Positions 10,258-48,881 of a stretch of 64,000 nucleotides of DNA are shown here, one piece after another. Below the pieces are notes generated by a model. The model was given only the letters and a program-made list of their open reading frames with translations. It was not told where the DNA came from and ran no database searches. Position 1 is the first letter of the stretch; the number at the start of each line of letters is the position of its first letter. The translations under genes were made by a program, and so were the position numbers. Origin of the DNA: Brachybacterium muris (lineage in GTDB: Bacteria; Actinomycetota; Actinomycetes; Actinomycetales; Dermabacteraceae); the NCBI RefSeq assembly GCF_016907455.1, contig NZ_JAFBCB010000001.1, positions 3,100,001-3,164,000 on the forward strand. The letters run 5' to 3'.

Positions 10258-10464
10258 ATGTCTGACGTACGTATCGACCTCAGCGGAGTAGAACGAGCCA
10301 TCACTGAAATGGGCACGATTCTTGAGAGGGATATCCAGCAGGTGTCTGTCGAGGTGGGTGAAGTCCGTGCTGACGTCGCCACCACTTCGCAAGAGCTCAA
10401 GGATCTGCGCCAGCGGTTCGAGGAGTACGCCCAGCAGTCCGAGCGCCTCGCTGAGTATTCGTAG
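10258..10464 (+). CDS. Small coiled-coil protein cut short by IS21 copy 1
   Basis: AGGAGAGG precedes the ATG. The 68-residue product is a continuous charged heptad pattern (VERAITEMGTILERDIQQ...ELKDLRQRFEEYAQQ), so it should form a coiled coil. The insertion begins at 10452, and the last codons and the TAG stop come from the IS end (GAGTATTCGTAG). The native C-terminus is therefore lost. It may have been a regulator or structural partner of the genes upstream; nothing more can be said. Confidence 0.6.
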   Translation: MSDVRIDLSGVERAITEMGTILERDIQQVSVEVGEVRADVATTSQELKDLRQRFEEYAQQSERLAEYS

Positions 10465-10564
10465 TCGTGGGAGCCACCGAATCTTGCTCTTGGGGACCGC
10501 CGATCGTGCCGACGGGGGCCAGTAGCCGCCGCGGTGGGGACCACTGGCTCCCGCCGGCATCGGG

Positions 10565-11311
10565 TCACTGGGGCAGTGCGGTGTGTTCTCGCATGTTCCT
10601 GTCGCCGGTGTCGATCCAGATTGTGTTGTGCACGATGCGGTCCATGATCGCATCGGCGTGGACTGCTCCACCGAGCCGGGCGTGCCAGTCCTTCTTCGGG
10701 TACTGGGTGCAGAACACGGTCGAGCCGGTGTCATAGCGGCGCTCGAGCAGTTCCAGCAGCATCGAACGCATTCCCTCGTCAGGATGGTCCAGCAGCCACT
10801 CGTCGATCACCAGCAGCGAGAACGTGGAGTACTTCCGCAGGAACTTCGTCTGGCCCTGCGGCTTGTCCTTTGCCAGGGCCCAGGCCTCTTCGAGGTCGGG
10901 CATTCGGATGTAGTGGGCTCGGAGCCGGTGCTGGCAGGCCTGCTTCGCCAGCGCGCAGCCGAGGTAGGACTTCCCTGAGCCGGTGAAGCCCTGGAAGACC
11001 ACGTTCTGTTGCCGCTGGATGAAGGAGCAGGTTGCCAGTTGCGCGATCACGTTCCGGTTCAGTCCCCGTTCCTCGACCAGATCCAGCCGCCGCAGGTCCG
11101 CTCCGGGATAACGCAGCCCCGCCCGGCGGATCAGACCCTCGACCTTTCCATGATTGAAGATGGAATGCGCCTCGTCCACGATCAGCTGGAGCCGTTCCTG
11201 GAACGACATCCCCAGCACGTGAGCCTCATCCTGGGCATCGATCGCGTCCAGCAGCGCGGTCGCGCCCATCTCGCGCAGCTTCCGCTTCGTGTCGTTATCG
11301 ATCACGCTCAC
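10565..11311 (-). CDS. istB: IS21 transposition helper ATPase IstB, copy 1
   Basis: The 248-residue AAA+ ATPase assists the IstA transposase in target choice and strand transfer. It shows Walker A GFTGSGKSY and Walker B LLVIDEW. The GTG start at 11311 overlaps the istA stop (GTGA), the usual IS21 coupling. Its sequence is identical to the intact copy at 34821-35567. Confidence 0.92.
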   Translation of the reverse strand: MSVIDNDTKRKLREMGATALLDAIDAQDEAHVLGMSFQERLQLIVDEAHSIFNHGKVEGLIRRAGLRYPGADLRRLDLVEERGLNRNVIAQLATCSFIQRQQNVVFQGFTGSGKSYLGCALAKQACQHRLRAHYIRMPDLEEAWALAKDKPQGQTKFLRKYSTFSLLVIDEWLLDHPDEGMRSMLLELLERRYDTGSTVFCTQYPKKDWHARLGGAVHADAIMDRIVHNTIWIDTGDRNMREHTALPQ

Positions 11312-12870
11312 CGGACACCTCCGGCGTAGTAGTCGGCGCCACGGACGTATCCGCCGTCTTCCGCGGGTTCCTCGCGGGGTGGACGCAGGGCGGCGACCTT
11401 GTCCTGCCCGGTGGCCAAGATCGGGTGCAGATGCGCATAGCGCGGTGAACGGACCCGTCCCGTCAGCGCGAGTGCGCAGGCCGCCTCGACCCGATCTACG
11501 GAGAAGCGGCGAGAGAGCCGTAGCACCGCCAACGCGGGATCCAGGCCCTGTTCCACGATCGGCACGGACTCGAAGATCCGCTGGATCACGATCACCGTGG
11601 CCGGCCCGACCCGATCTGCCCACGCCCGCACCCTCTGCGCGTCCCAGGCCTGGAAACGCTCGCCCGCAGGTAGGTCCGCGTCGTTGGTGCGGTACTCATT
11701 GCTCGCGGTCTCCGGGAGCAGCAGGTGACTGGTCAGTCGCTGGCTGCCCTGATAGATCTCCAGCGTCCGGGCCGTGATGCGCAGATCGACCTTCGCGCCG
11801 ATGTGCGCGAACGGCGCGGAGTAGAAGTTCCGCGCGAACGTGACGTGCCCGTTCCTGCCCACTCGTCGTCCGTAGTGCCATGTCGAGATCTCGTAGGGCA
11901 CCGCCGGCAGCGGCGTCAGCAGCGGCCGCTCCTCCGCGTCGAACACGCTGGCGCGGGATCCGGGCCGCTTCTGGAACGGCTCCGCGTTATAGGCCTCCAT
12001 CCGCTGCCCGATGGCGGCTGCAAGTTCGGGCAGGGACGTGAATCGCTGATCCCGCAGCCCGGCGATGACCCAGGTCGCGACGTGCGCGACGGTGTTCTCC
12101 ACGCTCGCCTTGTCTTTCGGTTTCCGCACCCTCCCCGGGAGCACCGCCGCCGAGTAATGCGCTGCCATCTCGCGATACGCATCGTTCAGGACGATCTCGC
12201 CCTCGCGGGGGTGCTTCACCACACCGGTCTTGAGGTTGTCCGGAACGATCCTCGGGACCGTCCCGCCCAGCGCCTCGAACATCGCTACGTGCGCTCGCAG
12301 CCAGGACTCCTGGCGCATATCCAGCGCCGGGAAGCAGAACGCGTAACGAGAAAAAGGCAGGCAGGCAACGAACAAGAACACCTTCGAGACCTCGCCGGTG
12401 ACCGGATCGGCCAGCTCCATCGTGGGGCCGGACCAGTCGACCTCCACGCTCTGGCCGGCCTTGTGACCGACTCTCGAAGCGGCACCGGTGACCATGACGT
12501 GGTGCTGGTAGGTGCGGCAAAACCGGTCATACCCCATCGCCGGATCCCCAGCCGCCGTGGTCGCGTCGAAGTACTCGCCGTGCAACAGCTTCAGCGTCAC
12601 GCCGACCCTGGCCATCTCTCGATGGACCTGTTCCCAGTCCGGCTGTGCGAACACGCTCTCGTGCTCGCCCCGGCCCGGGAACAACCGGGCATACACCTGC
12701 TCATCGGCGACGTCCGCGATATCGCCCCACCCGATCCCTGCAGCGTCAGCGGCCTCGAACACCGCCCTCACGGACTTGCGGGACATGCCCTGCGAGGACG
12801 AAATCGCTCGCCCCGACAGACCTTCTGCGCGCAGCTGGAGCACCAGCTTCGCCCTGATCTTCCGTACCAT
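11308..12870 (-). CDS. istA: IS21 transposase IstA, copy 1
   Basis: The 520-residue DDE transposase begins with an N-terminal HTH (LRAEGLSGRAISSSQGMSRKSV). Its rve-type catalytic core has EVDWSG, PDNLKTGV and KASVENTV supplying the D, D and E. The C-terminal beta part is normal. The protein is identical to the other two copies in the window, which indicates very recent spread. The RBS (GGAAGGAG) lies inside a perfect hairpin. Confidence 0.93.
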   Translation of the reverse strand: MVRKIRAKLVLQLRAEGLSGRAISSSQGMSRKSVRAVFEAADAAGIGWGDIADVADEQVYARLFPGRGEHESVFAQPDWEQVHREMARVGVTLKLLHGEYFDATTAAGDPAMGYDRFCRTYQHHVMVTGAASRVGHKAGQSVEVDWSGPTMELADPVTGEVSKVFLFVACLPFSRYAFCFPALDMRQESWLRAHVAMFEALGGTVPRIVPDNLKTGVVKHPREGEIVLNDAYREMAAHYSAAVLPGRVRKPKDKASVENTVAHVATWVIAGLRDQRFTSLPELAAAIGQRMEAYNAEPFQKRPGSRASVFDAEERPLLTPLPAVPYEISTWHYGRRVGRNGHVTFARNFYSAPFAHIGAKVDLRITARTLEIYQGSQRLTSHLLLPETASNEYRTNDADLPAGERFQAWDAQRVRAWADRVGPATVIVIQRIFESVPIVEQGLDPALAVLRLSRRFSVDRVEAACALALTGRVRSPRYAHLHPILATGQDKVAALRPPREEPAEDGGYVRGADYYAGGVR

Positions 12871-12878
12871 TCCAGATT

Positions 12879-12919
12879 GCTCCTTCCGCCGCGTGCCCTA
12901 TACACACGGCGGAAGGAGC
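12879..12919 (-). promoter_or_regulatory. Hairpin hiding the istA ribosome-binding site, copy 1
   Basis: On the istA strand GCTCCTTCCGCCG pairs perfectly with CGGCGGAAGGAGC. The second arm contains the RBS nine bases before the ATG. A transcript entering from outside would fold and hide the RBS, whereas one starting inside the hairpin would not. Confidence 0.6.
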
Positions 12920-13121
12920 GTAGACAGAGCGGCCCCAACGACACCACTGGTGGTCCCGAACGACGCCACCGCTACGGCAGCGACGTGGCACCCGAACCCT
13001 CGATCAGCGGACCCCAGCGAGGCGAATATTCAATCGAGAGGCTGCGGCGCCGATGACCCTGGGTTCCCGCGCGGTCCCGAACACCCTCGGACACCTTCTG
13101 CTGCTCTCCAGGAGGGCATTC

Positions 13122-27147: not shown

Positions 27148-28555
27148 GCCATTCATTCCGCCGGTCGAGACCACACCCCCGTGAAATCTCGAGGTTAAGA
27201 CCTTATCGACGCAGAAGCGACTGTCAAGATCGGCACGGATCGCTACGAACGAACCCCCTCCCGCTCGACCCGACGTAACGGCACCAGAGCGAAGCGCCTG
27301 GCCACCCCGGCGGGAGACCTGGATCTGGTGACCCCGAAGCTGCATGCCGGCTCGTTCTATCCCGCGCTGCTGAATCCCCGCCGCGGGTCGACAAAGCGCT
27401 CTGGGCGGTGATCTGCACGGCCTGGATCGACGGGGTCCCCACCAGGAAAGTCGCAGACCTCGTCAAGGCGCTGGGCAACGAGTCCGGTATCAGCACGTCC
27501 CAGGCCTCCAGGATCTGCGGCGAGATCGACGAGGTCGTTGCGGAGTTCCTCCACCGGCGCCTGGACCACACCTGGTTCCCTACTGTGTTCCTGAACGCGA
27601 CCCATCTCGACATCCGCCAGGGCGGCCGCGTCGTCTCCCAGGCCGTCGCCGTCGCCACTGTTGTTGCCACGACCGGTCACCGCGAGGTGCTCGAGATGGC
27701 GATCGGTGACGCGGAGACCACCGACTTCTGGACCGAGTTCCTCCGTAGCCTGCGCGAACGCGGGCTGAAGGTCTCCACACCCGCGTCCCCCGAAGGTGCC
27801 CTGCTGGTCACCAGCGAGGCGCATTCGGGGCTAAAGCATGCGATCAAGGCCGTGCTCCCCGGAGAATCGTGGCAGCGCTGCCGGGTCCACTTCGCCCGCA
27901 ACATCACCCAGGCCCTGGGCTCGGCGCGGTCCAAGCCCGTCGATGAGCTGGTCTCCACGATCTTCGCCCAGGCCAACCAGAGACCGTGAGGGAGTCGTAT
28001 CAGCAGGTCACCGCTTCGCTCAAGGCCCCGTTCCCGAAGATCGCGGCGATGCTCAAGGACGCCGAAGCGGACCTGACCGCGTTCGCCGCGTTCCCCATTG
28101 AGCCCTGGCGGAAGATCTGGTCGAACAACCCCATCGAGCGGGTGAACCGCGAGATCAAGCGCCGAGCGGTCGCAGTCCAGATCTTCCCGAACCGGGCCTC
28201 CGCCCCCAGGCTCGTCGGGGCACCCCTCCAGGACCAGCACGAAGAATGGTTGTACGGTGAACGCCGCTACATCGGCGACATCTCCCTACGCCACCTGGCC
28301 GACATGCTCACCCCCAACACCCCCGAGGCCACCAGCCGGCTCCTCATGACCGCCTGACCCAAAAGCCACCACACAACGGGTATTGACCCGCTTCCTGCAG
28401 TTCGACATGATCTGACCAGTCTCCCTGCCCACAACCACGGGCGACAGGACGATTCCCAGAACCACCGGACCTACAAAACGGGGTCACCCCAAGGCCATGG
28501 GTGGGCCATAATGTGGAAGGAGCGGTCCCCGCAGGGGCCTCAGGGGAAGGGCGAG

Positions 28556-30247
28556 ATGACCGGGTACCTAATTGCTGTTGGCCGACGCGAACGCGTCACC
28601 GGGGTCGGCTCTTTCGTCCAGCGCGACGAGAGCACGTTCGTAGACGTCGACGAACGCACGTCGATGCTCTACGTCTCACGCACGGGGCACTTGAACGAGG
28701 AACGCCTTTTCCAGGGCTATGCGATGGACCATGAAGCGGGCCGAATGGTCTTCGCAGGCGCACCCAGCGGCGCACTCCCGGACCCCGCGACCCCGCTGGA
28801 AGGCACCTACTTCACCGCCGTGCTCGACGGCCCCACCATCCGCTTCGGACGGGACCTCTACGGCTTCGTGCCGATGGTCTGGTCCTCAGCGGAAGGCCTC
28901 GTCCTCGTCTCCGACTCGTACACCAGCATCATCGCGCTCAGGAAACAGCTCGGCCTACCCGCCACCCCCAGTGAAGCCACCATCGAGGGCCGCTTCTGGA
29001 CGAACGCTATGGGCTCCCAGCAGCTCGGCATCGAAACCTACTGCTCCGAGGTCAACTACGCTCCTGCCGGGACGCAGCTGCGATACGAGACGACCGACGG
29101 CACGGTGCATCTTGACCCCTTCGACGCACCCGCGTACTTCGAGGGAACCGTCGAGAGTCACGCGCAAGCCGTCACCGAAGCCGCAACCCGCATGGTCCGC
29201 TCCATCAAGACCTACGCCGCGACCGGCGGGATCGTCTCGCTCAGCCTGTCCGGCGGTACCGACTCCCGGGTCTGCCTCGCCGCTGCCCTCGCAGCCGACA
29301 TCGGCGACTCGCTCCACATCGGATGCATGCCGAACAACAAGCTCGACCTCGAGATCGCAGAGAGCCTGTCCCAACGCTTCGGCTTCCCGCTGAACGAGCC
29401 CAGCGACCTCGTCCGCGGTGAGGAAGTACGCAACCACGTCTCGGCCGGATGGGCCGCGCTCTCGATGGGCATCTACGACGTGCTCTACATGCCCCGCAAC
29501 CGCCGATACCGGCCCGTCCCGTTCTTTAACATCGGCGGCCACGGAGCAGAAGCCGCGAAGGGCAACTACGGTTGGCGGTCGATCCAATCCGTCGGCATGC
29601 CAGCCCCCGCGCTTGTTCAGGCAGAACGAGGTCTCGAAGCTCTCGGCGTCGCACCCGACGACCGCTGGGGCGCCGAATGGCACTACTTTGGGTTCAGGAA
29701 CGCGATCCACGGCGGCCGCGCGATCCTCTCAAACCAGTACGTTGCGCGGCCGGCAGCTCAGATCCCGCTCATCGGCTTGAGCCGGTCCGAGCACAACGAG
29801 TTCCCCGCCCCCGCCAGGGGTCAGCCGAGCGTCATCCTCGACTCGATGATCAAGATGTCCCCCGACCTCGCAATCCATCGCTTCGACGACGCACGGAAGA
29901 ACAACTCGTTCGCGTTCATAACGGAGCGCACCAACGCTCTCGAAGGCACCCTCGACAGTGCGTCATTGGCCCCGTACGAGATCGTCGGGGATCCCATGGC
30001 TGACCCCCCTCCGCTCGAGACACACCTCGAGCTCGCACGGTCGGAAGGATTCACAGGGGGGATGATGTTGAAGAACGAGGTGCCGCGCATAGCAGCACCC
30101 GTGGCCGAGTTCGGTCACCTCGCGCCGCCGGAAGTGCAAGAGCTACTCGCAGCGCTCGTCGATGGAACCTTCCCCCTGGACTCCGCTGAGACCAGGGAGA
30201 AGACCCTGATCGGCAAGATGCTGGCACTCACGCCTCTGGTGTCATAG
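28556..30247 (+). CDS. Asparagine synthase-like amidotransferase without N-terminal Cys
   Basis: 563 residues; GGGAAGG five bases before ATG 28556. The C-terminal half is an ATP-pyrophosphatase domain of the asparagine synthase class: P-loop VSLSLSGGTDSRVCL near residue 225, LDLEIAESLSQRFGF after it, and FFNIGGHGAEAAKGNYG. Such domains adenylate a carboxylate and replace AMP with nitrogen. The N-terminal half matches the glutaminase fold but begins MTGYLIAVG instead of MC, so it lacks the nucleophile and would need free ammonia or a partner. CATAAT at 28507-28512 could be a -10 box. It is the only intact non-transposase gene inside the IS pile-up. Uronic acid amidation in polysaccharide synthesis is one possibility. 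Confidence 0.75.
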   Translation: MTGYLIAVGRRERVTGVGSFVQRDESTFVDVDERTSMLYVSRTGHLNEERLFQGYAMDHEAGRMVFAGAPSGALPDPATPLEGTYFTAVLDGPTIRFGRDLYGFVPMVWSSAEGLVLVSDSYTSIIALRKQLGLPATPSEATIEGRFWTNAMGSQQLGIETYCSEVNYAPAGTQLRYETTDGTVHLDPFDAPAYFEGTVESHAQAVTEAATRMVRSIKTYAATGGIVSLSLSGGTDSRVCLAAALAADIGDSLHIGCMPNNKLDLEIAESLSQRFGFPLNEPSDLVRGEEVRNHVSAGWAALSMGIYDVLYMPRNRRYRPVPFFNIGGHGAEAAKGNYGWRSIQSVGMPAPALVQAERGLEALGVAPDDRWGAEWHYFGFRNAIHGGRAILSNQYVARPAAQIPLIGLSRSEHNEFPAPARGQPSVILDSMIKMSPDLAIHRFDDARKNNSFAFITERTNALEGTLDSASLAPYEIVGDPMADPPPLETHLELARSEGFTGGMMLKNEVPRIAAPVAEFGHLAPPEVQELLAALVDGTFPLDSAETREKTLIGKMLALTPLVS

Positions 30248-30517: not shown

Positions 30518-30536
30518 CCGGGCTGAATCAGCCCGG
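30518..30536. repeat. 19-bp palindrome
   Basis: CCGGGCTGAATCAGCCCGG is perfectly symmetrical around its central A. It lies 12 bases from the end of the IS3 transposase scrap and may belong to the old IS3 end or be a second terminator. The stretch 30311-30547 otherwise shows no gene. Confidence 0.4.
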
Positions 30537-30547
30537 GTTCTCTGCCG

Positions 30548-30633
30548 CTACTTTGTGGGAGCGGGCTCTCGGGAGAGGGCCTCGTAGTTATGCGTCTCGG
30601 GCTCTACCGGGGTGAGCATCCCGAGAGAGCCGT
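30548..30633 (-). pseudogene. IS3-family transposase, C-terminal scrap
   Basis: Reads GSLGMLTPVEPETHNYEALSR and ends at TAG 30548. This is the usual end of an IS3-family OrfB. The matching upstream part is at 36769-37006. Confidence 0.75.
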
Positions 30634-30918
30634 TGATGACGCTCGCTGAAATTCCCCTGTGCCCACCGAAATTTCTCAGTCCGGGTCGCTCCGTCGCATG
30701 AGGCGGGCCTCCCTGGATGCTGGTGGTCTCTGACCACTCACCAGCCTTCCAGGGAGGCCCTACGCTCAAGCTCTCAGAGAGGAGCAGCGTGAAGCTCGCC
30801 GACGCTGAATATTCGCCTCGCTGGGGTCCGCTGATCGAGGGTTCGGGTGCCACGTCGCTGCCGTAGCGGTGGCGTCGTTCGGGACCACCAGTGGTGTCGT
30901 TGGGGCCGCTCTGTCTAC

Positions 30919-30959
30919 GCTCCTTCCGCCGTGTGTATAGGGCACGCGGCGGAAGGAGC
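30919..30959 (+). promoter_or_regulatory. Hairpin hiding the istA ribosome-binding site, copy 2
   Basis: GCTCCTTCCGCCG (30919-30931) pairs perfectly with CGGCGGAAGGAGC (30947-30959). The second arm includes GGAAGGAG just ahead of istA ATG 30968. Confidence 0.6.
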
Positions 30960-30967
30960 AATCTGGA

Positions 30968-32530
30968 ATGGTACGGAAGATCAGGGCGAAGCTGGTGCTC
31001 CAGCTGCGCGCAGAAGGTCTGTCGGGGCGAGCGATTTCGTCCTCGCAGGGCATGTCCCGCAAGTCCGTGAGGGCGGTGTTCGAGGCCGCTGACGCTGCAG
31101 GGATCGGGTGGGGCGATATCGCGGACGTCGCCGATGAGCAGGTGTATGCCCGGTTGTTCCCGGGCCGGGGCGAGCACGAGAGCGTGTTCGCACAGCCGGA
31201 CTGGGAACAGGTCCATCGAGAGATGGCCAGGGTCGGCGTGACGCTGAAGCTGTTGCACGGCGAGTACTTCGACGCGACCACGGCGGCTGGGGATCCGGCG
31301 ATGGGGTATGACCGGTTTTGCCGCACCTACCAGCACCACGTCATGGTCACCGGTGCCGCTTCGAGAGTCGGTCACAAGGCCGGCCAGAGCGTGGAGGTCG
31401 ACTGGTCCGGCCCCACGATGGAGCTGGCCGATCCGGTCACCGGCGAGGTCTCGAAGGTGTTCTTGTTCGTTGCCTGCCTGCCTTTTTCTCGTTACGCGTT
31501 CTGCTTCCCGGCGCTGGATATGCGCCAGGAGTCCTGGCTGCGAGCGCACGTAGCGATGTTCGAGGCGCTGGGCGGGACGGTCCCGAGGATCGTTCCGGAC
31601 AACCTCAAGACCGGTGTGGTGAAGCACCCCCGCGAGGGCGAGATCGTCCTGAACGATGCGTATCGCGAGATGGCAGCGCATTACTCGGCGGCGGTGCTCC
31701 CGGGGAGGGTGCGGAAACCGAAAGACAAGGCGAGCGTGGAGAACACCGTCGCGCACGTCGCGACCTGGGTCATCGCCGGGCTGCGGGATCAGCGATTCAC
31801 GTCCCTGCCCGAACTTGCAGCCGCCATCGGGCAGCGGATGGAGGCCTATAACGCGGAGCCGTTCCAGAAGCGGCCCGGATCCCGCGCCAGCGTGTTCGAC
31901 GCGGAGGAGCGGCCGCTGCTGACGCCGCTGCCGGCGGTGCCCTACGAGATCTCGACATGGCACTACGGACGACGAGTGGGCAGGAACGGGCACGTCACGT
32001 TCGCGCGGAACTTCTACTCCGCGCCGTTCGCGCACATCGGCGCGAAGGTCGATCTGCGCATCACGGCCCGGACGCTGGAGATCTATCAGGGCAGCCAGCG
32101 ACTGACCAGTCACCTGCTGCTCCCGGAGACCGCGAGCAATGAGTACCGCACCAACGACGCGGACCTACCTGCGGGCGAGCGTTTCCAGGCCTGGGACGCG
32201 CAGAGGGTGCGGGCGTGGGCAGATCGGGTCGGGCCGGCCACGGTGATCGTGATCCAGCGGATCTTCGAGTCCGTGCCGATCGTGGAACAGGGCCTGGATC
32301 CCGCGTTGGCGGTGCTACGGCTCTCTCGCCGCTTCTCCGTAGATCGGGTCGAGGCGGCCTGCGCACTCGCGCTGACGGGACGGGTCCGTTCACCGCGCTA
32401 TGCGCATCTGCACCCGATCTTGGCCACCGGGCAGGACAAGGTCGCCGCCCTGCGTCCACCCCGCGAGGAACCCGCGGAAGACGGCGGATACGTCCGTGGC
32501 GCCGACTACTACGCCGGAGGTGTCCGGTGA
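30968..32530 (+). CDS. istA: IS21 transposase IstA, copy 2
   Basis: 520 residues, identical to copies 1 and 3, with DDE blocks EVDWSG, PDNLK and ASVENT. Intact. Its coupled istB is broken by copy 3, so transposition would depend on IstB from another copy. Confidence 0.93.
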   Translation: MVRKIRAKLVLQLRAEGLSGRAISSSQGMSRKSVRAVFEAADAAGIGWGDIADVADEQVYARLFPGRGEHESVFAQPDWEQVHREMARVGVTLKLLHGEYFDATTAAGDPAMGYDRFCRTYQHHVMVTGAASRVGHKAGQSVEVDWSGPTMELADPVTGEVSKVFLFVACLPFSRYAFCFPALDMRQESWLRAHVAMFEALGGTVPRIVPDNLKTGVVKHPREGEIVLNDAYREMAAHYSAAVLPGRVRKPKDKASVENTVAHVATWVIAGLRDQRFTSLPELAAAIGQRMEAYNAEPFQKRPGSRASVFDAEERPLLTPLPAVPYEISTWHYGRRVGRNGHVTFARNFYSAPFAHIGAKVDLRITARTLEIYQGSQRLTSHLLLPETASNEYRTNDADLPAGERFQAWDAQRVRAWADRVGPATVIVIQRIFESVPIVEQGLDPALAVLRLSRRFSVDRVEAACALALTGRVRSPRYAHLHPILATGQDKVAALRPPREEPAEDGGYVRGADYYAGGVR

Positions 32531-33102
32531 GCGTGATCGATAACGACACGAAGCGGAAGCTGCGCGAGATGGGCGCGACCGCGCTGCTGGACGCGATCGA
32601 TGCCCAGGATGAGGCTCACGTGCTGGGGATGTCGTTCCAGGAACGGCTCCAGCTGATCGTGGACGAGGCGCATTCCATCTTCAATCATGGAAAGGTCGAG
32701 GGTCTGATCCGCCGGGCGGGGCTGCGTTATCCCGGAGCGGACCTGCGGCGGCTGGATCTGGTCGAGGAACGGGGACTGAACCGGAACGTGATCGCGCAAC
32801 TGGCAACCTGCTCCTTCATCCAGCGGCAACAGAACGTGGTCTTCCAGGGCTTCACCGGCTCAGGGAAGTCCTACCTCGGCTGCGCGCTGGCGAAGCAGGC
32901 CTGCCAGCACCGGCTCCGAGCCCACTACATCCGAATGCCCGACCTCGAAGAGGCCTGGGCCCTGGCAAAGGACAAGCCGCAGGGCCAGACGAAGTTCCTG
33001 CGGAAGTACTCCACGTTCTCGCTGCTGGTGATCGACGAGTGGCTGCTGGACCATCCTGACGAGGGAATGCGTTCGATGCTGCTGGAACTGCTCGAGCGCT
33101 GA
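32527..33102 (+). pseudogene. istB: istB 5' part, copy 2, cut by copy 3
   Basis: Begins at GTG 32527 (GTGA overlap with istA) and keeps Walker A GFTGSGKSY and Walker B LLVIDEW. It stops at a TGA supplied by the end of the inserted IS (33100-33102). The last 57 codons lie at 35681-35859. Confidence 0.9.
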
Positions 33103-33212
33103 ATATTCGCCTCGCTGGGGTCCGCTGATCGAGGGTTCGGGTGCCACGTCGCTGCCGTAGCGGTGGCGTCGTTCGGGACCACCAGTGGTGTCGTTGGGGC
33201 CGCTCTGTCTAC

Positions 33213-33253
33213 GCTCCTTCCGCCGTGTGTATAGGGCACGCGGCGGAAGGAGC
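33213..33253 (+). promoter_or_regulatory. Hairpin hiding the istA ribosome-binding site, copy 3
   Basis: Same 13-bp perfect arms as in copies 1 and 2, the second arm covering the RBS of istA at 33262. Confidence 0.6.
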
Positions 33254-33261
33254 AATCTGGA

Positions 33262-34824
33262 ATGGTACGGAAGATCAGGGCGAAGCTGGTGCTCCAGCTG
33301 CGCGCAGAAGGTCTGTCGGGGCGAGCGATTTCGTCCTCGCAGGGCATGTCCCGCAAGTCCGTGAGGGCGGTGTTCGAGGCCGCTGACGCTGCAGGGATCG
33401 GGTGGGGCGATATCGCGGACGTCGCCGATGAGCAGGTGTATGCCCGGTTGTTCCCGGGCCGGGGCGAGCACGAGAGCGTGTTCGCACAGCCGGACTGGGA
33501 ACAGGTCCATCGAGAGATGGCCAGGGTCGGCGTGACGCTGAAGCTGTTGCACGGCGAGTACTTCGACGCGACCACGGCGGCTGGGGATCCGGCGATGGGG
33601 TATGACCGGTTTTGCCGCACCTACCAGCACCACGTCATGGTCACCGGTGCCGCTTCGAGAGTCGGTCACAAGGCCGGCCAGAGCGTGGAGGTCGACTGGT
33701 CCGGCCCCACGATGGAGCTGGCCGATCCGGTCACCGGCGAGGTCTCGAAGGTGTTCTTGTTCGTTGCCTGCCTGCCTTTTTCTCGTTACGCGTTCTGCTT
33801 CCCGGCGCTGGATATGCGCCAGGAGTCCTGGCTGCGAGCGCACGTAGCGATGTTCGAGGCGCTGGGCGGGACGGTCCCGAGGATCGTTCCGGACAACCTC
33901 AAGACCGGTGTGGTGAAGCACCCCCGCGAGGGCGAGATCGTCCTGAACGATGCGTATCGCGAGATGGCAGCGCATTACTCGGCGGCGGTGCTCCCGGGGA
34001 GGGTGCGGAAACCGAAAGACAAGGCGAGCGTGGAGAACACCGTCGCGCACGTCGCGACCTGGGTCATCGCCGGGCTGCGGGATCAGCGATTCACGTCCCT
34101 GCCCGAACTTGCAGCCGCCATCGGGCAGCGGATGGAGGCCTATAACGCGGAGCCGTTCCAGAAGCGGCCCGGATCCCGCGCCAGCGTGTTCGACGCGGAG
34201 GAGCGGCCGCTGCTGACGCCGCTGCCGGCGGTGCCCTACGAGATCTCGACATGGCACTACGGACGACGAGTGGGCAGGAACGGGCACGTCACGTTCGCGC
34301 GGAACTTCTACTCCGCGCCGTTCGCGCACATCGGCGCGAAGGTCGATCTGCGCATCACGGCCCGGACGCTGGAGATCTATCAGGGCAGCCAGCGACTGAC
34401 CAGTCACCTGCTGCTCCCGGAGACCGCGAGCAATGAGTACCGCACCAACGACGCGGACCTACCTGCGGGCGAGCGTTTCCAGGCCTGGGACGCGCAGAGG
34501 GTGCGGGCGTGGGCAGATCGGGTCGGGCCGGCCACGGTGATCGTGATCCAGCGGATCTTCGAGTCCGTGCCGATCGTGGAACAGGGCCTGGATCCCGCGT
34601 TGGCGGTGCTACGGCTCTCTCGCCGCTTCTCCGTAGATCGGGTCGAGGCGGCCTGCGCACTCGCGCTGACGGGACGGGTCCGTTCACCGCGCTATGCGCA
34701 TCTGCACCCGATCTTGGCCACCGGGCAGGACAAGGTCGCCGCCCTGCGTCCACCCCGCGAGGAACCCGCGGAAGACGGCGGATACGTCCGTGGCGCCGAC
34801 TACTACGCCGGAGGTGTCCGGTGA
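33262..34824 (+). CDS. istA: IS21 transposase IstA, copy 3
   Basis: 520 residues, identical to the other two copies, with a complete DDE core (EVDWSG, PDNLK, ASVENT). Its stop overlaps the istB start. With copy 1 this is a fully intact istA-istB pair. Confidence 0.93.
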   Translation: MVRKIRAKLVLQLRAEGLSGRAISSSQGMSRKSVRAVFEAADAAGIGWGDIADVADEQVYARLFPGRGEHESVFAQPDWEQVHREMARVGVTLKLLHGEYFDATTAAGDPAMGYDRFCRTYQHHVMVTGAASRVGHKAGQSVEVDWSGPTMELADPVTGEVSKVFLFVACLPFSRYAFCFPALDMRQESWLRAHVAMFEALGGTVPRIVPDNLKTGVVKHPREGEIVLNDAYREMAAHYSAAVLPGRVRKPKDKASVENTVAHVATWVIAGLRDQRFTSLPELAAAIGQRMEAYNAEPFQKRPGSRASVFDAEERPLLTPLPAVPYEISTWHYGRRVGRNGHVTFARNFYSAPFAHIGAKVDLRITARTLEIYQGSQRLTSHLLLPETASNEYRTNDADLPAGERFQAWDAQRVRAWADRVGPATVIVIQRIFESVPIVEQGLDPALAVLRLSRRFSVDRVEAACALALTGRVRSPRYAHLHPILATGQDKVAALRPPREEPAEDGGYVRGADYYAGGVR

Positions 34825-35567
34825 GCGTGATCGATAACGACACGAAGCGGAAGCTGCGCGAGATGGGCGCGACCGCGCTGCTGGACGCGATCGATGCCCA
34901 GGATGAGGCTCACGTGCTGGGGATGTCGTTCCAGGAACGGCTCCAGCTGATCGTGGACGAGGCGCATTCCATCTTCAATCATGGAAAGGTCGAGGGTCTG
35001 ATCCGCCGGGCGGGGCTGCGTTATCCCGGAGCGGACCTGCGGCGGCTGGATCTGGTCGAGGAACGGGGACTGAACCGGAACGTGATCGCGCAACTGGCAA
35101 CCTGCTCCTTCATCCAGCGGCAACAGAACGTGGTCTTCCAGGGCTTCACCGGCTCAGGGAAGTCCTACCTCGGCTGCGCGCTGGCGAAGCAGGCCTGCCA
35201 GCACCGGCTCCGAGCCCACTACATCCGAATGCCCGACCTCGAAGAGGCCTGGGCCCTGGCAAAGGACAAGCCGCAGGGCCAGACGAAGTTCCTGCGGAAG
35301 TACTCCACGTTCTCGCTGCTGGTGATCGACGAGTGGCTGCTGGACCATCCTGACGAGGGAATGCGTTCGATGCTGCTGGAACTGCTCGAGCGCCGCTATG
35401 ACACCGGCTCGACCGTGTTCTGCACCCAGTACCCGAAGAAGGACTGGCACGCCCGGCTCGGTGGAGCAGTCCACGCCGATGCGATCATGGACCGCATCGT
35501 GCACAACACAATCTGGATCGACACCGGCGACAGGAACATGCGAGAACACACCGCACTGCCCCAGTGA
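34821..35567 (+). CDS. istB: IS21 helper ATPase IstB, copy 3
   Basis: 248 residues, GTG start in a GTGA overlap with istA, Walker A GFTGSGKSY, Walker B LLVIDEW, C-terminus DRNMREHTALPQ. Intact. Confidence 0.92.
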   Translation: MSVIDNDTKRKLREMGATALLDAIDAQDEAHVLGMSFQERLQLIVDEAHSIFNHGKVEGLIRRAGLRYPGADLRRLDLVEERGLNRNVIAQLATCSFIQRQQNVVFQGFTGSGKSYLGCALAKQACQHRLRAHYIRMPDLEEAWALAKDKPQGQTKFLRKYSTFSLLVIDEWLLDHPDEGMRSMLLELLERRYDTGSTVFCTQYPKKDWHARLGGAVHADAIMDRIVHNTIWIDTGDRNMREHTALPQ

Positions 35568-35680
35568 CCCGATGCCGGCGGGAGCCAGTGGTCCCCACCG
35601 CGGCGGCTACTGGCCCCCGTCGGCACGATCGGCGGTCCCCAAGAGCAAGATTCGGTGGCTCCCACGACTACGAATACTCA

Positions 35681-35859
35681 AGCGCCGCTATGACACCGGC
35701 TCGACCGTGTTCTGCACCCAGTACCCGAAGAAGGACTGGCACGCCCGGCTCGGTGGAGCAGTCCACGCCGATGCGATCATGGACCGCATCGTGCACAACA
35801 CAATCTGGATCGACACCGGCGACAGGAACATGCGAGAACACACCGCACTGCCCCAGTGA
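35681..35859 (+). pseudogene. istB: istB 3' part, copy 2
   Basis: Continues the interrupted istB of copy 2 after copy 3 (RRYDTGSTVFCTQYPKKDW to the TGA at 35859). Without a start it is silent. Confidence 0.9.
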
Positions 35860-35972
35860 CCCGATGCCGGCGGGAGCCAGTGGTCCCCACCGCGGCGGCT
35901 ACTGGCCCCCGTCGGCACGATCGGCGGTCCCCAAGAGCAAGATTCGGTGGCTCCCACGACTACGAATACTCA

Positions 35973-36851
35973 GACGCCGCCGACGCCCTCCCCGGCATCC
36001 TGGACCAAGCCCAGGCCGAGGACTGGACCCTCACCCACGCCCTGGAGCGCCTGCTGGCGATCGAGGTGAGTGCCACCGAGAAGCGTCGCCTCGCGGGCCG
36101 GTTCCGGTTCGCGAACCTGCCCACCGGAGCGACGCTGGAGAACTTCGACCACGACGCCGCCTCCGGCATCGACCCCAACCTCCTCGCAGAACTCGGGTCC
36201 TGCCGGTTCCTAGAGAACGCAACGAACGTGCTGCTCATCGGCCCACCCGAAGTGGACAAGACCCATATCGCCACCGGCCTCGGCCACGCCGCGGTCAACG
36301 CCGGTTATCGGGTCTACTTCACCTCCGCTGCCGACCTCGCCGCCCGCTGCCACCGCGCCGCGATCGAGGGAAAATGGTCCACGATGATGCGGTTCTACGC
36401 TGGCCCCACCCTGCTGATCATCGATGAACTCGGCTACCTCCCGCTGCCGGCCGAAGCAGCCTCGGCACTGTTCCAGGTCACCAACCAGCAATACCTGAAG
36501 ACCTCGACCGTGATCACCACGAACAGGCCCGTCGGGGCCGGGGGCGAGATCCTCGGCGACACCACCGCCGCCGCCGCGATGCTCGACCGGCTCCTCCACC
36601 GCTCAGTCGTCATCACGCTCGACGGAGCCTCCTACAGGCTCCGTCACCACCCCACCGCCGCCGAGGAGATCCGTCGTGCCACCACCGGCACGAACCTCGG
36701 CCAATTTAGCCCCGCGGCCCTGGGGAAGTTCACCGAGCAACTCTGGGGAAAACCGATGAGCGCCATCAACGTGGAGGCGCCGGTCACTATGCCAGCCGAC
36801 CCAGCCAGCGGTCGCGAACTCGACGCCTGCGAGGGTCCGGTACGGCCCTGA
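35973..36851 (+). pseudogene. Second-type IstB ATPase, split and with a broken P-loop
   Basis: The start of this istB is at GTG 30789 (VKLAD) and resumes here after copies 2 and 3 (AADALPGILDQAQAED). The domain is IstB/DnaC-like with Walker B LLIIDELGYLPL and the sensor block STVITTNRPVG. The Walker A reads GPPEVDKTH where GPPGTGKTH is expected, so ATP binding should fail. The frame runs through the element end (36768) into antisense IS3 sequence before meeting a stop at 36849. It is distinct from the IstB of copies 1-3. Confidence 0.8.
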
Positions 36852-37006
36852 GTGGAAGACGGTGGTGCGGATGCACTCAGTCTCGTAGAGGCCGTTGATC
36901 GTCTCCATCGGCGCGTCATCAAAGGCGTCGCCGACGGTCCCGGTCAACGCAGCGATGCCCTCGCTGTCGAGGTCCTCCGTCAACCGAATCGCGGTGTATT
37001 GGCGGG
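36769..37006 (-). pseudogene. IS3-family transposase, middle scrap
   Basis: Reads QYTAIRLTEDLDSEGIAALTG, then VGDAFDDAPMETINGLYETE and GWVGWHSDRRLH, the second half of an IS3 OrfB with its catalytic Glu. It is cut at the left by the istA-less element and lost at the right near 37006. Confidence 0.78.
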
Positions 37007-37007
37007 T

Positions 37008-37054
37008 TCAACTGGCCGATGCAACACCGGGTTGATGTAGGAAGCCAGTTGAAT
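37008..37054. repeat. 10-bp perfect inverted repeat
   Basis: TTCAACTGGC (37008-37017) and GCCAGTTGAA (37045-37054) enclose 27 bases. The repeat sits at the broken edge of the IS3 relic and 82 bases downstream of the end of the glycosyltransferase gene on the minus strand, so it could be that gene's terminator. Confidence 0.4.
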
Positions 37055-37135
37055 CCGCCCCTCTCCGACTCAAACAGCAGCGGCATCAAACCTGGGCCGA
37101 TTCATTGACACCATCCCGTTCCTTTGTGCCGTCTA

Positions 37136-40100
37136 TCAGATTGTTATGCTCGCGCCGTACAGCTTGACGATCTGGCGCAGGATCCCCCGGGCCTCCTCCC
37201 GCCCCTCCGCGGGCATGCTCTCGAGCTTCGGGAGGTACCAGTTCCTGAGGAAGTTCTCGAAATGGTGGTCGCGGTACGCTTCAAGCAGTCCGTGCCTCAT
37301 CAGCGCCTCAACCTGCGCGGTTTCCATGATGAGCTTCTTACGGAAGTAGCTCATGTCCACCGTATTGGTCACCGATCCGTCCCGCTCGGCGTAGTAAATC
37401 AGGTGCGCTTCAGAGGTGAACGCGCCGTGCTCCGCCGTAAGCATGAGCTCCCACCCGAATAGGGTGTCCTGGCCAGCTGCACGTTCGACGAACCGAAGTC
37501 CTCCGTCGTCGAACAGACGCTTCTCCATTACTGCGCACTGGGTTGACACAACGGGAAACTTTCCGCGAAGGAAGTACTGCGCACGCAGATCTGTACGAAC
37601 CGTCAACCTCTCCTGAGTGTGGCGCCCTGTCATACCCGTCGTCTGAGTCACCTTAGCCTGGTATCCAGAGATGAAACCAACCCGAGAATCGGCGCCCTGG
37701 GCCTCATCCAGCAATTCGAGGAGAGTGTCATACCCCCCGTCGGAGATCTCGTTATCAGGGTCGAGGAATGTCAGCCGCGGGGCGCGAGCCATTTCGATCC
37801 CCTTGTTCCTCGGCCGGGACGCGCTGCCGCTACCACCAGTCTCGAAGCAGTACACGCGAATCCGGGAATCCCGGTCGGCGAGTTCGCGGCAGATTTGCGC
37901 CGTCGTCCCGTCCGTCGATCCATCGTCAACGAGTATGATCTCGAACTTCGGCGCGCGGGCATTCCGGTCGATGCTCGGAAGGCACTTGGTCACCAAGAAC
38001 TTGCTGGCGTTGTACACGGGCACGATTATCGAGAGAACCGGGGAGCCGGCACCGAGCGGAGCGGCCGTCCCCCCCTGGGGGCTTTGGCGTCTATTGGCCT
38101 CAAAGGGAGGCAGGCAGTACCCGGTGGCGACGACCGAGGGCTCGCCCCGAAGGAGGGACCGCAGGACCTCCGCACCGCTATGGCGGACAGAGTGGAGGGT
38201 GACCCCGTCCTCCGGCCGCTCCACAAACTCGTGCGCGGGTCCGTCGATGCGCCCGTCCTGGACGGAGGCGGACTGGGTGATGAAGGCAGAGTCGGTGTAC
38301 TTGAAGGCATTGACCCGATCCGTCACGTAGTGCTGTCCATAGGTGTGCGAGGTGTCCACGCGGCCTATGTAGCGGAACCCACGAGAGATCAGATCCCCGG
38401 GGTCCACATTGCCCTCAACCAGCTCGACCTCTGGGTACGACTGTGCGGCAATCTCGTGGCGCAGCTGGTCGTCCGGTTGCTCCGCGATGAGTGCGACACG
38501 AGGGGTGGTCCGCTGCAGTCCAGTGTCAATGCCTGCCGCGTTCAGCATCCTGGTAGCAATGTCCTGCGCGGTGCAGTTGGTCAGAATGCTTCGCACCTGA
38601 GTCTCATTGTTGCGGTGCTCGCTCAACGGGATCTCCGCGGTGAAGTAGGAAGCAAGGTTCTCGTGGTCGGCAACGATGCGGATCTCCGGAAACCGGTTGA
38701 ACACGGACCGAGCGTAGTTGGAGATGAGACCGCGGCCCTGCGCCTGGAGCTCGTAGATGCGCATGGCGCACATGGTGGGGCTCGACTTTATGGAGTTGAA
38801 GTTCAGACTCCACCGAAACAACTTATGGACCCTCTGGAGCAGGTCGTGCGGCATTGGCTCGAGGGATACGCCCGCGTAGAGCTCAGGAAAAGCGTACTCC
38901 TCGTTGCCGAAGTTCCTGTCTACCAGCGTGAGGTTCTCGCCGGTCGCGAGAATTGAATCGAAAATGACGTGCATGTCGTCGACGCGCTCTTGGTATCGCT
39001 TCGGGTACGACCCCGCAAAGAACGCCTTGTTCAAGGTGTGACGGTAGCTGCCGATGGGATTGTTGAGCAGGGGGTTCGCACCGTACTCGCCGTAGTGGAC
39101 ACGGTCGTGGCCGAGCTCTCGCCGATAGGCCTCGAGGCAGTCCGTGTCCGAGGTAAAGACATGATCGAACTTCTCGGCGATGGGGAGGAAGTACTCGAAG
39201 TTGCTTGGATCTTCGATCGATTGGAAAAAGGTCGGACGCCCGTTCTCGCGGGCATGCGCGAGCAACTTATCCAAAGCCTCGCGCGGGGTCTCGCGGAACT
39301 TAACGCCCCGCCACTCCTCGTCGTAAATACCCTTCCAGCACGTCACGTAGATAAGCAAATCGAAGCCATTGGCCACGACCTGGTCCACCATCGATGGGCG
39401 TACATAAGTGACCTTGGCGAAAGCGTCCTTGTAGAAGTTCAGCATGTACTCGTCGGTCACGATTGCCGCGTGGAAAGGGAGCTTTTCCGCAAAGTACTCA
39501 GAGCCATTGCTCTGGGGAAGCGTCGATGCGAGCTGGATAAGGAGCTCACGGGTAAGCCGTCGCGCCTCGAGCGAGCCCTCTCCCCTGGAGGACTTCGGCT
39601 CGCTGGCGGCGACGAGGCGGTCCTGAACCCGGTCGAGCACCTTTCCTGCACGTTGCCCTGCGAGGACGACTTCGCGGAGGCTCGTCGCGAAGGCGTCGAG
39701 ATCCTGGTCAGTCTGCCTCTGAGGCTCTGTGCCCGCAGCCCCGAAATCGACGACCTTAACTCCCGAGCGGGTGCCCGATGGCCGGTCGACGACAGCGAGG
39801 TCGAGACCACCCAACTCGAGTGGTGCGGTCCCGCGAACGCGCAGCGTGACAAGCAGCCGGTCGGCGCCTTCGGGCGGGATGTACAGCACCCTCCGCCTCG
39901 CGTCAATCTGCGTGACGCCCGTCCTCTTGCCGGCGGAGTCGTACTCCAGAAGGTGCACTTCGGCCCGCACCTCGGTACTCGGCTCCGCGTCGAGATGGAC
40001 CACGTAGGCGGCACCAGCCTCGATGTTGATCCCGCAGTGTTCGTCAAGTGCGCGGAACTGCCGTTCATTTCCGGCAAGCACGAGGTAGACCGGCTGCTCG

Positions 40101-40237
40101 GAGGAGGGGGTCACGACCGTCCGCCCGGAACGGCTGAGTCTGATGTCGACCGACTCGGCGCGAGTCGTGTTCCACGCATTCTCGACCTTAAGGTCGGTCC
40201 GGAACCCGACCAGGGGGAAATCTCGCAGGGAGGTCAT
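37136..40237 (-). CDS. Large multidomain glycosyltransferase
   Basis: 1033 residues. Residues 1-230 form a beta-rich domain of unknown role. Residues about 270-620 resemble CgeB-type GT-B transferases (VTYVRPSMVDQVV, FDHVFTSDTDCLEAYR, YGANPLLNNP, MRIYELQAQGRGLISNYA). Residues about 730-960 are a GT-A (GT2) domain with LSIIVPVYNASKF, LVDDGSTDGT and LDPDNE, where the metal-binding DxD is located. It probably adds two sugars in turn to a wall polysaccharide in the cytoplasm. The start is taken at ATG 40237; the RBS is weak. The sequence is visibly less GC-rich than the flanks. It is the last gene of the minus-strand polysaccharide operon, next to the IS3 relic. Confidence 0.82.
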   Translation of the reverse strand: MTSLRDFPLVGFRTDLKVENAWNTTRAESVDIRLSRSGRTVVTPSSEQPVYLVLAGNERQFRALDEHCGINIEAGAAYVVHLDAEPSTEVRAEVHLLEYDSAGKRTGVTQIDARRRVLYIPPEGADRLLVTLRVRGTAPLELGGLDLAVVDRPSGTRSGVKVVDFGAAGTEPQRQTDQDLDAFATSLREVVLAGQRAGKVLDRVQDRLVAASEPKSSRGEGSLEARRLTRELLIQLASTLPQSNGSEYFAEKLPFHAAIVTDEYMLNFYKDAFAKVTYVRPSMVDQVVANGFDLLIYVTCWKGIYDEEWRGVKFRETPREALDKLLAHARENGRPTFFQSIEDPSNFEYFLPIAEKFDHVFTSDTDCLEAYRRELGHDRVHYGEYGANPLLNNPIGSYRHTLNKAFFAGSYPKRYQERVDDMHVIFDSILATGENLTLVDRNFGNEEYAFPELYAGVSLEPMPHDLLQRVHKLFRWSLNFNSIKSSPTMCAMRIYELQAQGRGLISNYARSVFNRFPEIRIVADHENLASYFTAEIPLSEHRNNETQVRSILTNCTAQDIATRMLNAAGIDTGLQRTTPRVALIAEQPDDQLRHEIAAQSYPEVELVEGNVDPGDLISRGFRYIGRVDTSHTYGQHYVTDRVNAFKYTDSAFITQSASVQDGRIDGPAHEFVERPEDGVTLHSVRHSGAEVLRSLLRGEPSVVATGYCLPPFEANRRQSPQGGTAAPLGAGSPVLSIIVPVYNASKFLVTKCLPSIDRNARAPKFEIILVDDGSTDGTTAQICRELADRDSRIRVYCFETGGSGSASRPRNKGIEMARAPRLTFLDPDNEISDGGYDTLLELLDEAQGADSRVGFISGYQAKVTQTTGMTGRHTQERLTVRTDLRAQYFLRGKFPVVSTQCAVMEKRLFDDGGLRFVERAAGQDTLFGWELMLTAEHGAFTSEAHLIYYAERDGSVTNTVDMSYFRKKLIMETAQVEALMRHGLLEAYRDHHFENFLRNWYLPKLESMPAEGREEARGILRQIVKLYGASITI

Positions 40238-40274
40238 CGCTGGGTGCTCTCTCAATTCTGTTCGTGATCGGGGG

Positions 40275-40682
40275 TCATCGGCGCACGGGATGGAGAGAAG
40301 CCTCGAGCGAGAGAACCCGGTCGTGAAGGAGCGCCATCTGCGTGTACGTCGCGCTCTCGTCGACCTCATCCTGAATCATACGCACCTCGAAACTGAGGCC
40401 ATTCAACAGCGTTTCCGTCTCTCGGAGCTGCTCGCTGGTCGTCTCCCGCGCCTCGCGCAGCGCCGTCTCAAGCGCAGCGACTCGGGCCTGTACGACCCAT
40501 CGGTGGCGGCTCTCCGATCGGATCCGCGATCGAATTCGGAGGATAGCGGCACCGCCGGCAGCGAGCACGAGTAGTACCGCGACCCCGCCCAGCTCACCTC
40601 GAACTGCCGAGGCAATCGATACGATGACCGCCGCAATCACGAGGACGGCACCCACCAGGGAGTAAAGATGATTCCGTGACAT
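40275..40682 (-). CDS. Small membrane protein with coiled-coil tail
   Basis: 135 residues from ATG 40682. Two membrane helices (LVGAVLVIAAVIVSIASAV and VAVLLVLAAGGAAIL) are followed by a long charged heptad region (VAALETALREARETTSEQLRETETLLNGL) that should form a cytoplasmic coiled coil. It lies between wecB and the big glycosyltransferase in the same direction, so it may tether or organise glycosyltransferases at the membrane. No family recognised. Confidence 0.68.
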   Translation of the reverse strand: MSRNHLYSLVGAVLVIAAVIVSIASAVRGELGGVAVLLVLAAGGAAILRIRSRIRSESRHRWVVQARVAALETALREARETTSEQLRETETLLNGLSFEVRMIQDEVDESATYTQMALLHDRVLSLEASLHPVRR

Positions 40683-40710
40683 GGGAGAAGCCTTTCTGGG
40701 GTCTTGGTTC

Positions 40711-41889
40711 TCAGACTCCGAAGTCCAAGGGGCGGAGGCCGCCTGCGAACTTCCAGTTGATAGCCTCCACGGTTCGATTCGCTGCAACGCCGTCTCCGTA
40801 AGGGTTCACCGCGTAAGCCATTGCGGCGTAAGCCTGTTCGGAGTCCAGAAGAAGGGACACCTCATCTACGATCCGTTCGCGCCGGGTTCCGATGAGTTTG
40901 ACCGTACCGGCCAGGACTGCTTCCGGGCGCTCGGTGTTCTCCCGCATAACGAGCACCGGCTTGCCCAGACTCGGAGCCTCCTCCTGCACACCACCGGAGT
41001 CCGTGAGCACGATGTCCACCAAGCTAAGCGTCTTGGTGAACTCCGCGTAGGCCATCGGCTCCGTGACGATCACGTTGGGCAGACCTTCAAGCGGGGGGAG
41101 CGCGGCCTCTCGTACCTTGGGGTTGAGGTGCACAGGGAACACGATCGTGAGGTCGTCGTACTTGCGTGCCAAGTCAGCAACGGCATTGCCGATGTCCGCC
41201 ATCGCCGCACCGAGGTTCTCGCGGCGGTGCGCCGTGACCAGCAGCACCCTGCCGACTCCACCTTCCGTGTTGCGCTGCTCCTGCAGCTTCTGGAGGCGCT
41301 CATCGGAGAACTCCACTTCAAGCTTCGTGGCATAGAGGAGCGTGTCGATCACGCTGTTGCCGGTGACGACGATGTCGTTCTCACTGATGGACTCATGCAC
41401 CAGGTTCGCCTTGCTGGTCTCCGTGGGCGCCAGGTGCAGCTTGGTGATCTGACTGGTGAGCTTGCGGTTCGCCTCCTCCGGGAACGGCGAGTCGATGTTG
41501 CCCGAGCGCAGTCCGGCCTCGAGGTGGATCACCGGGATCTGCCTGTTGAAGGCAGCGACCGCTGCTCCCATCACTGTCGAGGTATCACCCTGGACGATGA
41601 CTGCATCGGGCTGCTCCAGCTCCAGGATCCTGTCCACACCCGAGATCACCTTGGCCACGATGCCGTTCAGGCTCTGACCGGCGCTCATGATGTTGAGGTC
41701 GTGATCGGGGATGATCCCGAACATGGTGTTCACCTGATCCAGCATCTCGCGATGCTGTCCCGTGACGACCACGATGCTCTCCAGATCGTCGGCCTTCTCG
41801 ATCGCCTTGATCACCGGGGCGACCTTGATCGCTTCGGGCCGGGTGCCATAGATGGTCATGATGCGCAGTGTCACGGAAACCTCTTCCAT
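40711..41889 (-). CDS. wecB: UDP-N-acetylglucosamine 2-epimerase (non-hydrolysing)
   Basis: 392 residues. Converts UDP-GlcNAc to UDP-ManNAc, the substrate of WecC. Family motifs: IYGTRPEAIKVAPVI, VTGQHREMLDQV, VQGDTSTVM, HLEAGLRSGN, TAHRRENLG, LTDSGGVQEEAPSLGKPVLV and NTERPEAV. ATG 41889 overlaps the stop of tagH by one base (TGATG). A GTG at 41874 with GAAGAGG ahead of it is an equally good start. Gene order tagG-tagH-wecB supports a role in an exported wall polymer with ManNAc-derived sugars. Confidence 0.92.
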   Translation of the reverse strand: MEEVSVTLRIMTIYGTRPEAIKVAPVIKAIEKADDLESIVVVTGQHREMLDQVNTMFGIIPDHDLNIMSAGQSLNGIVAKVISGVDRILELEQPDAVIVQGDTSTVMGAAVAAFNRQIPVIHLEAGLRSGNIDSPFPEEANRKLTSQITKLHLAPTETSKANLVHESISENDIVVTGNSVIDTLLYATKLEVEFSDERLQKLQEQRNTEGGVGRVLLVTAHRRENLGAAMADIGNAVADLARKYDDLTIVFPVHLNPKVREAALPPLEGLPNVIVTEPMAYAEFTKTLSLVDIVLTDSGGVQEEAPSLGKPVLVMRENTERPEAVLAGTVKLIGTRRERIVDEVSLLLDSEQAYAAMAYAVNPYGDGVAANRTVEAINWKFAGGLRPLDFGV

Positions 41890-47836: not shown

Positions 47837-47873
47837 TTAGCGGATCGACCGATGCACACTCACCCACCCAGCC

Positions 47874-47893
47874 GCATACCACGCTGGGTATGC
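47874..47893. promoter_or_regulatory. Palindromic operator of the mntA-hepT pair
   Basis: GCATACC (47874-47880) and GGTATGC (47887-47893) are perfect 7-bp arms around ACGCTG, ending eight bases before ATG 47902. MntA here carries an N-terminal XRE-type HTH, so self-repression is likely. Confidence 0.65.
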
Positions 47894-47901
47894 TTAGCGT
47901 C

Positions 47902-48785: not shown

Positions 48786-48805
48786 CGGCGCAACTCACCG
48801 AATTG

Positions 48806-48837
48806 TCCGCTGTGCTTCCACTACTGGAAGCACAGCG
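48806..48837. terminator. Bidirectional terminator between hepT and the APC permease
   Basis: CCGCTGTGCTTCCA (48806-48819) pairs perfectly with TGGAAGCACAGCGG (48824-48837) over the loop CTAC, with GCAAAA after it on the plus strand. It separates two converging genes. Confidence 0.78.
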
Positions 48838-48881
48838 GGCAAAACCGTGAGGGGCGGGCCTCAGCAAGCCCGCTCGCCGGC

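Follow-up and report, generated by a model that had tools for sequence, protein, structure and literature searches.

We report on a nest of four transposable elements in Brachybacterium muris and on the IS21-family insertion sequence (IS) that forms its two innermost levels. The nest lies in a stretch of 64,000 nucleotides (hereafter the window; contig NZ_JAFBCB010000001.1, positions 3,100,001 to 3,164,000) and was read from the assembly alone. Its outermost level is a probable IS3-family relic on the minus strand (approximately 30524..37104), which retains a C-terminal transposase part and both element ends while most of the interior is deleted. The C-terminal part of this transposase is interrupted by an internally deleted IS21-type element (30634..36769, plus strand), delimited by its ends, its target duplication and comparison with a relative (G010). 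In istB of this second, older element sits IS21 copy 2 (30806..35972, plus strand; bases 1-2294 and 2290-2581, target duplication GACGC), and in istB of copy 2 sits the complete, 2,581-bp IS21 copy 3 (33100..35680, plus strand; target duplication AGCGC). Copies 2 and 3 have the same orientation and identical sequences, and 2,581 identical bases together with precise duplications are beyond chance. The fourfold nest at 30524-37104 is thus confirmed, and the coordinates, both 5-bp duplications and the identity of copies 2 and 3 agree with a preliminary description made from the letters of the window. A further identical copy (copy 1, 10452..13032, minus strand) has no target duplication.

In copy 3, istA (33262..34824, plus strand) encodes an IS21 transposase of 520 amino acids, and istB (34821..35567, plus strand), just downstream and overlapping istA by 4 bp, encodes a helper ATPase. 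IstA matches NCBIfam NF033546 with 228.2 bits (cut-off 160) and Pfam Mu-transpos_C_2; for its DDE (rve-like) core, PF22483 scored above the cut-off and PF00665 below it (28.7 bits, cut-off 32.6). IstB matches Pfam IstB_IS21 (PF01695) with 140.6 bits (cut-off 24.1) and NCBIfam NF038214 with 184.9 bits, just under the cut-off of 200. The terminal inverted ends, TGAATATTCG and TGAGTATTCG, are 9/10 alike. With an IstA carrying a DDE core, an IstB, inverted ends and short duplications, the element belongs to the IS21 family (IstA/IstB), examples of which are IS21, IS5376 and IS100 and in which duplications usually range from 4 to 8 bp. It shares with the family the 4-bp istA/istB overlap, the inverted ends, the short target duplications and the IstB helper ATPase, and differs from these examples in its 130 left ends, in the identity of all uninterrupted copies found, in its repeated self-nesting and in a duplication that varies between 4 and 7 bp within one element.

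The genome is assembled as one contig of 3,647,194 bp (assembly 99.97% complete), in which the exact left end occurs 130 times; the right end was found 133 times in the stretches examined around the copies. We found 121 uninterrupted copies (65 on the plus and 56 on the minus strand) and all are identical (121/121), such that copy 3, described at the outset as identical to copy 2, has the same sequence as 120 other uninterrupted copies genome-wide. The IS21 sequence found amounts to 339,478 bp, or 9.3% of the genome with fragments included, leaving 3,307,717 IS-free bases; the G+C content is 66.1% for IS21 and 67.3% for the first stretches examined together with the window. Diverged copies were sought in 20 further stretches from the gaps between copies (400 kb), where no similar sequence was detected. 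The 121 identical copies would imply recent transposition activity, and the best explanation of these data is that about 130 insertion units spread so recently that no copy found has diverged. A search for a replicate in the relative G016 gave a related element (79%) with only five exact left ends, far apart. The best match among named proteins comes from Candidatus Brachybacterium merdigallinarum (86%), whose locus has the same DNA sequence as that of the relative G003, a genome placed in the genus of the window. This Brachybacterium is not known as a host-restricted pathogen. A published table lists IS21 (135) for B. muris, and the count is given there as a number only, without analysis of nests in that part of the source (PMC10581053); the draft genome of B. 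muris UCD-AY4 is reported as 3,257,338 bp with 70% G+C (PMC3622973). Bursts of IS elements are described for Yersinia pestis (IS21 and IS200), Shigella (IS1) and Bordetella pertussis (IS481) (PMC4072520). The present case resembles these expansions in that a single IS family multiplied recently within one species, and differs from them in its Brachybacterium host and in that the copies found are all of one sequence type, with no divergence.

Perfect duplications of 4 bp (15 copies), 5 bp (49), 6 bp (30) or 7 bp (10) flank 104 of the 121 uninterrupted copies, and the remaining 17 were sorted by hand. In three of these (L077, L087 and L126) the duplication lies at the edge of a larger unit; one is a full copy inside the L046 unit, one (G000:C1:1595355-1597958) is followed by a further 23 bp of its right end and then by the duplication GTAGG, one (2294359) has a duplication with one mismatch and one (480171) is an imperfect nest. 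Two form a reciprocal inversion pair (2753035 and 2772692, see below), and eight, including copy 1 of the window, have no reciprocal partner. Among these eight, the copy at 532753 has a match of 8 bp, displaced by 6 bp, and the copies at 2087410 and 1854924 share 4 bp, one way only; CCGGG, a duplication of the inversion pair, also matches the right flank of 532753. The target shows a weak base preference (for example, at 57% of the 49 sites whose duplication is 5 bp long the immediately preceding base is a G), and no shared flanks were detected among 121 outer loci at 28/40 identity. Coding calls were obtained for 56/108 insertion sites, compared to 258/429 control sites and 300/515 random window sites, i.e. 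a mild avoidance of genes as judged by a crude classifier trained on 11 window open reading frames (ORFs) and at one of four thresholds.

The IS3 relic extends beyond the limits first stated, its other end being set by a 45-bp match to two loci in relatives (L186 and L188), and comparison with L183-L189 shows that both ends are kept and most of the interior is gone. On 36771-36983 (minus strand) NCBIfam NF033516 (IS3) gave an E-value of 2.7e-6 and 26.9 bits, for a fragment of only 71 residues and against a curated cut-off of 160; no Pfam match was obtained for this transposase fragment. At the DNA level, matches of 78-85% over 225-229 bases were present in 8 of the 34 relatives searched. That the IS3 halves rejoin, as had been proposed, was substantiated in 7/7 relatives' loci tested (L183-L189), where the flanks are contiguous (3-bp overlap) on uninterrupted copies. 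Inside the relic lies a 59-bp stretch (37001-37059) with inverted ends GGCGGGTTCAACTGGC ... GCCAGTTGAATCCGCC, which we take to be IS30-like; with ≤1 mismatch allowed, the pattern of its ends is present at a single place in the genome, and its border is uncertain as the IS3-flank alignments to L184 and L187 extend to 37040. The nest as a whole is flanked by an ORF at 28511-30247, presumably asparagine-synthetase-like, and by ORFs at 37136-42950, which from their translations we assume to be a cell-surface polysaccharide cluster (glycosyltransferase, UDP-GlcNAc epimerase, ABC transporter ATPase).

The second element ends at 36768 or 36769, has inverted ends of 27 bp (30631-30657 and 36745-36771; 74% complementary) and is flanked by the duplication CGT, or CCGT/ACGT with one mismatch. 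It had been taken for a different, istA-less type of IS21. The relative G010 carries two copies (L153 and L178; 99.96% alike) of an element whose istA and istB are both open and which matches the window at 89% identity across 799 bp (the first bases of the G010 element lie outside the stretch compared). Compared with these, approximately 1,364 bp are missing from the window element, and istA codons 1-25 are fused in frame to istB from its codon 22 onwards (joint read by hand); its Walker A motif is degraded (GPPEVDKT, compared to GPPGVGKT in G010). The open istA in L153 rules out a separate istA-less lineage, and on these comparisons the second element is best described as decayed and as derived by internal deletion from an ordinary istA+istB element. 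Near another IS21 copy, a relic of 65 bp (95%; G000:C1:748199-748263) represents its right end.

The preliminary description had also dated the insertions relative to each other. For the outer levels this stands, and in the secure order the IS3 element came first, the IS21-type element second and the copy 2/copy 3 pair last. It does not stand for copies 2 and 3, whose junction recurs to the base at three other loci, in full at L136, by its left half at L087 and by its right half at L126, and this rules out dating them as two in-situ events from the window locus alone. The outer duplications are GACGC in the window, ACCAGT at L136, GGCTC at L087 and CCGAGTC at L126. Because the junction is shared and the outer duplications differ, copies 2 and 3 may have arrived together as a 5,167-bp unit. 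L136 (G000:C1:2882401-2890154) is a triple self-nest in which the 2294 nest sits inside a further copy at base 601, the outermost copy having no duplication of its own. L087 consists of the left half plus a full copy and L126 of a full copy plus a right fragment; judged by their structure, these forms would be the products expected of recombination between direct nest copies, or of mixed-end transposition. In addition, there are two 3,625-bp units (a full copy plus bases 1538-2581), one with the duplication GCAGGT and the other (46774-50398) without.

Most likely, the pair was mobilized through its outer ends as one unit of 5.2 kb. A close rival, which we regard as quite possible, is that the 2290-2294 nest spread by gene conversion, i.e. 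that by homologous recombination a nested copy converted a simple copy elsewhere, which kept its own outer duplication. Recombination among copies is evident from the inversion pair and the neighbour spacing (see below), and the shortened nests L087, L126, L077 and 1595355 have the forms expected from recombination between direct copies; against this, dispersed copies would have to undergo conversion across a 2.6-kb heterology repeatedly, and the burst would already need about 130 transpositions. That the AGCGC site in istB is instead an insertion hot spot, hit independently at several loci, appears unlikely. Two pairs of other self-insertion sites do lie within approximately 5 bp, but the nests of the window and of L136 agree exactly in position, strand and duplication (L087 and L126 agree with them in whichever half is still present), duplications elsewhere vary between 4 and 7 bp, and the weak base preference and lack of common flanks among the 121 outer loci (28/40 identity) do not suggest such specificity; the chance of one site being hit at least three times among 12 uniform insertions is 2.5e-5. 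Finally, identical repeats are hard to assemble, and the nest is known from the assembly alone. It is nevertheless extremely improbable that the nest is an assembly artefact, given the precise duplications at both IS21 levels of the window nest, the occurrence of nests elsewhere, at several loci whose outer sites differ, the one-contig, 99.97% complete assembly with its 120 other identical uninterrupted copies, the 104/121 copies with a perfect 4-7 bp duplication of their own, and the 135 IS21 listed for B. muris in print (PMC10581053).

Insertions of IS21 into itself were found at nine sites, near element bases 316, 598, 601, 756-760, 763, 837, 1538, 1912 and 2294. Five of these (598, 601, 837, 1912 and 2294) have perfect duplications on both sides and the site at 316 has one mismatch. 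The nine positions and the 130 target choices were tallied by hand, and the site simulation used 602 and 758 where the recount gave 601 and 756-760. Under random sequential insertion of 130 units 6.1 self-hits are expected; barring 15% of the remaining genome raises this to 7.1, the 15% being a chosen value whose sole basis is the crude coding classifier. A fivefold cut in the self-rate gave P values of 0.002-0.004 for six events and <2e-5 for nine. Early work of Danilevich and Kostiuchenko, from 1985, reportedly suggested target immunity for IS21. In a 2024 structural study IstB is described as an AAA+ helper like MuB and TnsC, and whether and how it confers target immunity is said there to await investigation (PMC11208146). 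The IS21 studied here is like the Mu and Tn7 immunity systems in having such a helper (PMC11208146), and unlike them in showing depletion neither of self-insertions nor of inverted close neighbours: a strong drop inside or near a copy, irrespective of orientation, was not found (self-insertions 6-9 against 6-7 expected, inverted neighbours at <10 kb 20 against 18.4). Strong target immunity in this IS21 is therefore unlikely, while an about twofold reduction is still compatible with the data, and the absence of strong immunity may be a property of IstB. The argument against strong immunity, made initially from the self-insertion in the window, is borne out by the genome-wide count (nine sites against 6-7 expected), on which our conclusion rests because a single self-insertion says little.

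For the spacing of neighbours, nests were collapsed to 121 outer loci and the mixed unit 46774-52217 was entered as minus. Gaps <2 kb number 8 against 8.5 expected and gaps <10 kb 26 against 36.9 (P 0.006), with 18 against 28.4 at 2-10 kb (P 0.008). This last deficit could be explained by IS21 immunity acting over a few kb outside the element. Such short-range immunity is, however, very improbable, since the deficit below 10 kb is confined to direct pairs (6 against 18.4 expected, 0/5000 simulations as low), inverted pairs being at expectation, gaps <2 kb and self-insertions are not reduced, and an orientation dependence is not expected of immunity; on the depletion of direct pairs only, we disfavour immunity as the cause of the spacing deficit. 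When strands were shuffled with positions fixed, same-strand neighbours numbered 6/26 at <10 kb (P 0.005), 11/30 at 10-20 kb (P 0.10) and 14/30 beyond 40 kb (P 0.44). The shortage of close direct pairs fits loss of the intervening DNA by homologous recombination. Where two direct copies recombine, the copy that remains would lack a matching duplication; eight copies are of this kind, and copy 1 of the window is probably such a scar. Two inverted copies, at 2753035 and 2772692 (G000:C1:2753035-2775272), have reciprocally exchanged duplications (CCGGG and GTGCT), which marks an approximately 17-kb inversion by recombination between them.

Taken together, we consider it probable that one very active IS21 spread to about 130 units with weak targeting and hits on itself, that its nests multiplied and that recombination between direct copies removes neighbours. 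In this model IstA would cut and join the IS21 ends and IstB would select targets with a weak base preference and without strong avoidance of IS21 itself, such that copies enter copies at about the rate of random targeting. Nested pairs would then multiply, the 2290-2294 nest being whole at two loci and half-decayed at two more; the outer ends would mobilize the nest as a unit of 5.2 kb, intact copies providing IstA and IstB, and homologous recombination between direct copies would remove neighbours and trim nests.

Several observations weigh against this model. Copies were located by the exact left end, and diverged ones outside the approximately 1.08 Mb examined could be missed. The self-insertion counts are small, and three of the nine lack a clean duplication or one half (756-760 and 763 have no duplication; 1538 is represented by two right halves only). 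A twofold lower self-rate gave P values of 0.09-0.15 for six events and 0.004-0.011 for nine, and with 60% of the rest barred 14 self-hits are expected, for which nine is lowish (P 0.09; ≤7, P 0.02). The two pairs of self-insertion sites within approximately 5 bp (0.15 expected, P 0.008) suggest that hot spots may exist, and the sequence left by unit transposition does not differ from that left by gene conversion. The same-strand shortage is weakly present also at 20-40 kb (12/35, P 0.04). The flank test in relatives, an empty-site control for copies lacking a duplication, was uninformative for copy 1 of the window, where the region is hardly conserved, and for L099, whose flanks match scattered places in many genomes. 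For L107 it was only loosely consistent: the flanks lie approximately 386 kb apart in the relative G004, both matches are weak (65% and 72%), and the right stretch has short matches in several genomes.

The element is of a known kind in an unusually informative state, and constitutes a useful natural dataset. The nest cautions against assuming that nested elements arrived successively at the site where they are found, and the orientation asymmetry of close neighbours separates targeting from later recombinational loss. As a tentative extension, self-insertion might serve as a growth route for the IS, in which, with no immunity, nested pairs would become new composite transposons using any compatible ends, and host recombination between direct copies would act as a brake on spacing and orientation. 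The interest of the case lies in this separation of targeting from loss and in its test of target immunity, about 130 identical insertions in one chromosome providing a direct count that bears on immunity in IS21.

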